46,733 bases of DNA from Candidatus Adlerbacteria bacterium (GTDB lineage: Bacteria > Patescibacteriota > Minisyncoccia > Phycocordibacterales > SBAW01), in the NCBI GenBank assembly GCA_903819895.1, contig CAIJFH010000026.1, positions 1 through 46,733 of the forward strand. Reading direction: 5' to 3'. Made by a program: the position numbers and the translations under genes. Positions 21,407 to 22,001 of this stretch are shown here, one piece after another (within the stretch, counting starts at the first letter, position 1; every line of letters starts with the position of its first letter). The notes below the pieces were generated by a model, which searched no databases, was not told the DNA's origin, and was given only the letters and a program-made list of their open reading frames with translations.

Positions 21407-21871
21407 ATGAACGATGCAGATGATTTACATGCGTGTATTGCTGCCGCAAAAGCAGTATACGAAAAACAATCAGTGTTGCGCTGTCCTTATTTTAACGAGA
21501 TGGTCACTCTCAATGCAGATGGATTTAATCATCTGTTGTATAAACCTAATCGCCAACCGCGCAACGTGAAAGAACAGCAATTAAAATTACGATTATTGAA
21601 AAAAGGTTTACGCATATTGCAGCGGGCAGGGACAGTGCAAGAGGAGCGATTGTGTTTCGAGAAAGTAGGAAAACAAAGAAGCGACGGTCTATCTGCGACA
21701 AAGGAGGTTCGGTATTGGGCGTTCCACGATATTGTTGGAGAAACAAAACGTTTTAAAATGCGCGTCATTGTGCGGAAGGTTGGAGATGGAAAAATAGCTT
21801 TTTGGAGTGTTATGCCGCACGGGAAGATTAATCGACAGCGTCTATATGATGAGGGCATAGGAGATGAGTAG
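21407..21871 (+). CDS. Hypothetical protein, possible BECR-fold nuclease-like
   Basis: 154 aa ORF with YWAFHDIVGETKRFKMRVIVRKVGDGKIAFWSVMPHGKINRQRL; TATATT 9 nt before ATG. Confidence 0.6.
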   Translation: MNDADDLHACIAAAKAVYEKQSVLRCPYFNEMVTLNADGFNHLLYKPNRQPRNVKEQQLKLRLLKKGLRILQRAGTVQEERLCFEKVGKQRSDGLSATKEVRYWAFHDIVGETKRFKMRVIVRKVGDGKIAFWSVMPHGKINRQRLYDEGIGDE

Positions 21872-21875
21872 AGAA

Positions 21876-21968
21876 TCAAAAAAGCCGCCCAGTGGCGGCT
21901 CCTTTGGTGTACCTGTCTTCAGCTTTGGAAATCCTTAGCCGAAAAGGGGCTTTCGCCCACAGGCACAC
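21876..21968 (-). ncRNA. Candidate structured ncRNA (three-way junction plus intrinsic terminator)
   Basis: P1 GUGUGCCUGU/ACAGGUACAC, P2 GGGC-GAAA-GCCC, P3 UUCGGCU/AGCUGAA, then GCCGCC-ACUG-GGCGGC-UUUUUU. Confidence 0.62.
21878..21899 (-). terminator. Intrinsic terminator of candidate ncRNA
   Basis: Minus strand GCCGCCACTGGGCGGCTTTTTT. Confidence 0.82.
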
Positions 21969-21972
21969 TGCT

Positions 21973-22001
21973 AGTATACAGTACTGGTGTTTTGTGGGCA
22001 A
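21973..22001 (-). promoter_or_regulatory. Sigma70-like promoter of candidate ncRNA
   Basis: Minus strand TTGCCC - 17 nt - TATACT. Confidence 0.65.

Follow-up and report, generated by a model that had tools for sequence, protein, structure and literature searches.

The described arrangement nearest in layout to the locus studied here is the DUF3800 protein with its convergent DUF3800 RNA, in which a compact structured RNA converges on the 3' end of a small protein gene, as in the module described below. The DUF3800 protein has an RNase H fold (PMC10910872). In AbiF/RCd22 of Clostridioides difficile, a separate structured RNA neutralises the toxin by binding it directly (PMC12373285). In type III toxin-antitoxin systems (ToxIN, CptIN, TenpIN, AbiQ), the RNA consists of tandem repeats and lies upstream of the toxin gene in the same transcript, with a terminator between them.

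Here we describe an RNA-protein pair from the Patescibacteria, a phylum of tiny bacteria whose genomes are very small. We analysed 46,733 nt of the forward strand of Candidatus Adlerbacteria contig CAIJFH010000026.1 (assembly GCA_903819895.1), hereafter the window. A first-pass annotation had placed an undescribed, structured and independently transcribed RNA on its minus strand, next to the gene ORF154. That reading is upheld by the absence of an above-threshold match in Rfam 15, by covarying homologues and by a conserved promoter position. The RNA is real and previously unnamed, as judged by sequence comparison with Rfam 15 and by the open-access literature. The features of the locus are as follows, with the evidence for each in brackets.

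21407-21871, plus strand: ORF154, the partner protein, LPD3-like and a predicted BECR-type RNase (conserved residues, Pfam, AlphaFold2 model, Foldseek)
21973-22001, minus strand: sigma-70-type promoter of the RNA, TTGCCC (22001-21996), 17 nt, TATACT (21978-21973) (sequence; position conserved among homologues)
21878-21968, minus strand: predicted small RNA of ~90 nt (promoter and terminator positions; covariance-model match)
21959-21968, minus strand: 5' strand of P1, GUGUGCCUGU (pairing, fold, covariation)
21947-21958, minus strand: P2 hairpin, GGGC-GAAA-GCCC, with a GNRA tetraloop (pairing, fold, covariation)
21918-21943, minus strand: P3 hairpin, with a CGGC...GCYG core (pairing, fold, covariation, conserved core)
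21907-21916, minus strand: 3' strand of P1, ACAGGUACAC (pairing, fold, covariation)
21878-21900, minus strand: intrinsic terminator of the RNA, stem AGCCGCC-ACUG-GGCGGCU and U-run (sequence, fold; terminator-like for ORF154 on the plus strand too)

A predicted small RNA with its own promoter and terminator

The window promoter is the sole sigma-70-like match within 300 bp (0.3 expected). Read on the minus strand, P1 comprises 10 bp including one G-U, P2 abuts it directly without an unpaired base between them, and P3 is formed by UUCGGCU (21943-21937) paired with AGCUGAA (21924-21918). Among folds of 21968-21900, this three-way junction has the lowest energy (-32.7 kcal/mol, z -5.5, with 0/200 shuffles as good). 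Folding of 21873-22001, promoter DNA included, gives a different winning fold, so the junction holds only if the transcript begins near 21968, as the promoter position predicts. The terminator stem sits between P1 and the stop codon of ORF154 (21869-21871), and it is terminator-like when read on the plus strand as well.

The first-pass annotation had described most of this architecture, and its details stand: the TTGCCC-17-TATACT promoter, which recurs at the same relative position in 53/58 homologous loci; the P1 helix with its single G-U, supported by sequence, fold and covariation; the P2 hairpin stacked on P1 (21958-21947) and the P3 pairing (21943-21918); and the stem and U-run that follow the junction (21900-21878). 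The transcript size of ~90 nt that it gave agrees with the predicted span of 21968-21878, and the suggestion that the RNA converges on ORF154 and may share its terminator is borne out by a stem that is terminator-like on both strands.

No Rfam 15 family scored above its gathering threshold at the window RNA or at the RNAs of the other loci. The sraL model (RF01408) reached 26.2 bits against a threshold of 39, in a match spanning promoter DNA and the terminator, and we rejected it together with the Phe leader and other weak matches, which are below threshold with alignments running over the terminator. The window RNA is not a DUF3800 RNA (best match DUF3800-XI, 11 bits vs 37.8), and its counterparts at other loci also gave no match to the DUF3800 Rfam models.

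Homologues and covariation

A DNA search of 41 related genomes recovered two clear further copies, one in the same genome as the window (G000:C24, 77%) and another in a member of the same genus (G027:C15), both tail-to-tail with an ORF154 homologue. The RNAs fall into two subtypes that differ in linkers and loops: subtype A includes the window, C24 and most of L051-L063, and subtype B includes C13 and most of L069-L098. We built separate covariance models for subtype A (R1) and subtype B (R2), because a mixed-subtype alignment misplaced P3. R1, built without the window copy, matches 21908-21966 at 56.9 bits (E 4e-14). A covariance-model search of relatives, as proposed at the outset, does find covarying homologues.

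Pairs changed on both sides number 12/19 in the hand-chosen seed of subtype B and 13/21 in that of subtype A. Among 56 distinct model-aligned sequences, 14/19 pairs changed on both sides, the both-side-changed cells number 151 (0/500 shuffles as good), and 96.7% of cells are paired, in an alignment that is biased towards the model to which it was fitted, with slid controls (at most 49% paired) and shuffled controls far off. The compensatory stem changes therefore indicate selection for RNA structure. Beyond pairing, the CGGC/GCYG core of P3, the A closing the P3 loop and an A in the P3-P1 junction are conserved, and variation is found in the covarying stems and the P3 loop.

The transcription signals are conserved together with the fold. 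A sigma-70-type promoter (spacing 16-19 nt) has its -10 element ending 4-8 nt before P1 in 53/58 loci, and P1 is thus the likely 5' end of the RNA; the mean promoter score is 10.5, against 8.65 in shuffled sequence and 8.7 on the antisense strand. Terminator-like hairpins follow the RNA in 52/58 loci (35% in shuffles). P1 lies 0-59 nt (median 36) past the stop codon of the gene and does not overlap it; at L034 and L038 the stop codon is inside the terminator.

The RNA is paired with the ORF154 family

A family-level protein search identified nine loci spread over six genomes. The window's own genome holds three of the nine, and the RNA is directly downstream and convergent in 8/9. A profile search of the phylum found the protein in 33/380 genomes, with the RNA accompanying nearly all of 29 phylum loci, and independent scans of the 380 genomes with the RNA models recovered mostly the same loci. 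A one-genome-per-species scan (GTDB) found 31 loci, all of Patescibacteria type where they bear names, and the RNA is present in 30/30 of those having downstream DNA. The queries for this contig scan were close protein subsets, since the first eight proteins, once aligned, formed too diverse a set, and the scan for this reason reaches mainly subtype B. Searches of phage, plasmid and viral collections, sensitive to near relatives alone, found none, and we dropped an origin in such elements on the strength of this near-relative search.

Altogether we examined 76 loci, 65 with an intact gene and 62 of these non-redundant (L072, L073 and L076 duplicate L042, L041 and L043). The RNA converges on the gene end in 61/62 non-redundant loci with an intact ORF154-family gene, recognised by covariance model in 55 (E 1e-3 or better) and by eye in six (L049, L064-L068). 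The exception is L033, where no RNA was found and the subtype A model finds none in that genome. The RNA had been called an autonomous sRNA: the possession of its own promoter agrees with this, but it does not stand alone, being half of a module with ORF154.

RNA and protein distances are strongly correlated (Mantel r 0.86, n=57, 0/5000), as is expected of any linked sequences inherited together, and the correlation is no proof of binding. The window's genome carries two type A pairs and one of type B, and each RNA fits the subtype of its own protein.

The immediate neighbours of L069-L098 include two PemK/MazF toxins, RhuM, MmeI-type restriction-modification genes and DprA, some of them defence-type, in an uncontrolled tally.

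The partner protein

The two ORF154-family proteins of the window's genome considered here, ORF154 and its C24 homologue, are 41% identical. Searched alone against Pfam, PADLOC and NCBIfam, ORF154 gave no credible family match and none to LPD3. At the family level, Pfam LPD3 (large polyvalent protein-associated domain 3, PF18798) is matched with E < 0.1 by 19/29 proteins (best 5e-6), and two members pass its cut-off (27.1 vs 27 bits). By these sequence scores, the family is at the margin of Pfam LPD3.

The AlphaFold2 model of ORF154, which is confident (pLDDT 91, pTM 0.83), has as its best Foldseek matches large phage proteins, and two of the top three viral-protein matches are named LPD3 or polyvalent protein-associated (probability 0.99-1.00, TM about 0.5). 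None of the solved structures matched significantly; 6cp9, a contact-dependent-inhibition toxin and BECR tRNase, matched weakly (E 0.9, TM 0.31-0.37).

G39, H42 and R52 never change within the family, and P27, F132 and S134 are nearly invariant. H42 falls in helix 37-44 and S134 in the last strand (130-138). RNases of the BECR and PBECR groups, active in toxin-antitoxin and polymorphic toxin systems, carry a His in a helix and a Ser or Thr in strand 4 of the core sheet (PMC5512222), and the ORF154 family has this combination of helix His and last-strand Ser. The conserved residues and the model make ORF154 a probable metal-independent RNase with the BECR fold, an assignment that is our own, since LPD3 was not classed as BECR in that survey (PMC5512222).

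Most subtype B and several subtype A proteins also share an acidic C-terminal tail that is conserved (GxPEED, GDLEED or similar) and whose codons adjoin the common terminator. At L033 (G007:C1:85586-85990), the LPD3-like C-terminus is replaced in frame by a serine-recombinase-like segment, which may be an insertion or an assembly join.

Possible functions of the module

What the sequences show is the pairing in a convergent layout, the structure of the RNA, the conservation of its promoter and terminator, and a protein with an LPD3-like fold and invariant His, Arg and Ser. Given the near-constant tail-to-tail pairing with RNase-like proteins, the locus is most likely a toxin gene with its RNA antidote, and we hold with somewhat better than even confidence that ORF154 and the RNA form a two-part toxin-antitoxin module, type III-like in its logic. 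The toxin would be the small LPD3-like protein, a predicted BECR-fold RNase that is probably toxic. The convergent RNA, driven by its own promoter, would start at the base of P1, fold into the compact junction of P1, P2 and P3, and end at the terminator that it shares with the end of the toxin gene. It would most likely bind and block the protein directly, as type III antitoxins do; AbiF/RCd22 sets a precedent for such neutralisation by a structured RNA encoded separately. Were transcription to stop, the RNA would decay faster than the protein and the toxin would be freed, perhaps on stress or phage infection. The patchy distribution (33/380 genomes) and the several copies per genome are consistent with toxin-antitoxin genes.

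Nine loci carry the RNA but lack an intact gene. The gene is frameshifted or partly deleted and the RNA kept at L095, L097 and L128; the gene is gone, with its last codons still beside the RNA, at L109, L130 and L133; and no trace of a gene is left at L107, L112 and L123. We rejected this asymmetry as proof of a toxin-antitoxin relationship, as it is not significant given the lengths of gene and RNA: with a gene about eight times the length of the RNA core, chance would give loss of the gene in about 9/10 decayed loci. At L112 (1501-1614; G073:C5:6231-6344), two distinct subtype B RNAs lie in tandem and no LPD3-like gene is close by; these RNAs may be antitoxins that were retained. At L133, where the LPD3-like gene was lost, the RNA is followed on its own strand by a different small protein (1636-2112) with the motif YFSTRCLKHLYDKK, which may likewise be a BECR-like nuclease.

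Alternatively, the RNA may be the required cofactor, guide or scaffold of a ribonucleoprotein effector whose complex cuts or binds other nucleic acid, for example in defence. Obligate pairing and co-divergence would be equally expected of such a complex, and the DUF3800 modules, alike in layout, have a protein of RNase H fold (PMC10910872). We regard it as unlikely, however, as the RNA has no obvious variable guide-like segment, its variation being confined to the covarying stems and the P3 loop. Retention of the RNA after loss of the protein, needless for a cofactor, also speaks against it, if not with statistical decisiveness.

It is less probable still that the protein is a non-toxin and the RNA a sensor, or a mimic of the protein's real target such as a tRNA or rRNA stem, which the protein binds or cleaves to tune its own expression or activity. 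The conserved P3 core and the junction A could imitate a natural substrate in this way, but the RNA has its own promoter on the opposite strand and is therefore neither a leader nor a UTR of the gene.

Antisense control, in which the RNA would pair with the convergent mRNA in a type I-like manner, seems improbable. The convergent gene ends do overlap at the terminator, and in some loci the stop codon lies inside it; P1, however, lies 0-59 nt beyond the stop codon, clear of the gene, and the compensatory stem changes show selection on structure. Pairing of the RNA with the start region of the gene was ruled against, as cognate combinations show no excess (-23.3 vs -22.7 kcal/mol mean, mean rank 0.47). 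Finally, a functionless chance fold over a bidirectional terminator, which would borrow part of its stability from the terminator, is refuted by covariation in homologues across the phylum, with the conserved promoter spacing and phylum-wide pairing also against it.

Comparison with known systems

We compared the toxin-antitoxin module proposed here with the DUF3800 RNA motifs RF02961 (DUF3800-II), RF02964 (DUF3800-V) and RF02968 (DUF3800-IX), the DUF3800 genes being recognised by FIDESG-type motifs and the adjoining RNA, not by family search. DUF3800 RNAs (V and II) at L063, L067, L135 and L138 converge on their genes like the LPD3-associated RNA, and a general class of convergent protein-sRNA pairs is possible. 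The RNA overlaps the end of the frame at L067 and lies 23 nt from the gene at L135 and L138 and about 40 nt at L063; the DUF3800 modules of L063 and L067 are neighbours of LPD3-like modules. The DUF3800 RNA of L137 has no adjoining DUF3800 gene, and DUF3800-IX in L041 shares the strand of its neighbours, so the convergent layout is not universal in that group. The two kinds of module differ in both parts: the RNAs do not match each other, and the partner is LPD3-like in one and of RNase H fold in the other. It seems to us an evenly balanced question whether the pairs form a new, phylum-wide class in Patescibacteria, in which a stand-alone LPD3/BECR-type RNase would be checked by a convergent three-way-junction RNA, within a wider convergent protein-sRNA group that includes the DUF3800 pairs. 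The resemblance suggests that the RNA-based conflict modules of ultra-small bacteria include, as one type of organisation, convergent protein-RNA pairs, both LPD3-like and DUF3800.

LPD3 is also carried in phage polyvalent proteins; here it is represented by a stand-alone chromosomal protein with an RNA partner, and the domain thereby gains a partner and a testable function, along with a new RNA family of strong covariation. With AbiF/RCd22, the module has in common a computationally found structured RNA motif (there, the abiF RNA motif) beside a protein, whereas the AbiF RNA lies ahead of its gene and contains two hairpin motifs, and its toxin belongs to the Abi_2/AbiD/F family.

With the type III systems, the module shares a protein and a specific structured RNA, a predicted RNase, a patchy distribution and the proposed logic. 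In contrast to the repeats of type III RNAs, the RNA here is a single three-way junction (two occur in tandem only at L112, where there is no protein gene), and it lies downstream, on the opposite strand and under its own promoter. The ORF154 family has no match to ToxN/AbiQ, CptN or TenpN in Pfam, PADLOC or NCBIfam, its nearest family being LPD3. As both the defining layout and the toxin family differ, we do not file the module as type III: RNA, protein and layout are all new relative to these systems. If the RNA is an antitoxin, type III-like systems would be widened in RNA fold, toxin fold and gene order together.
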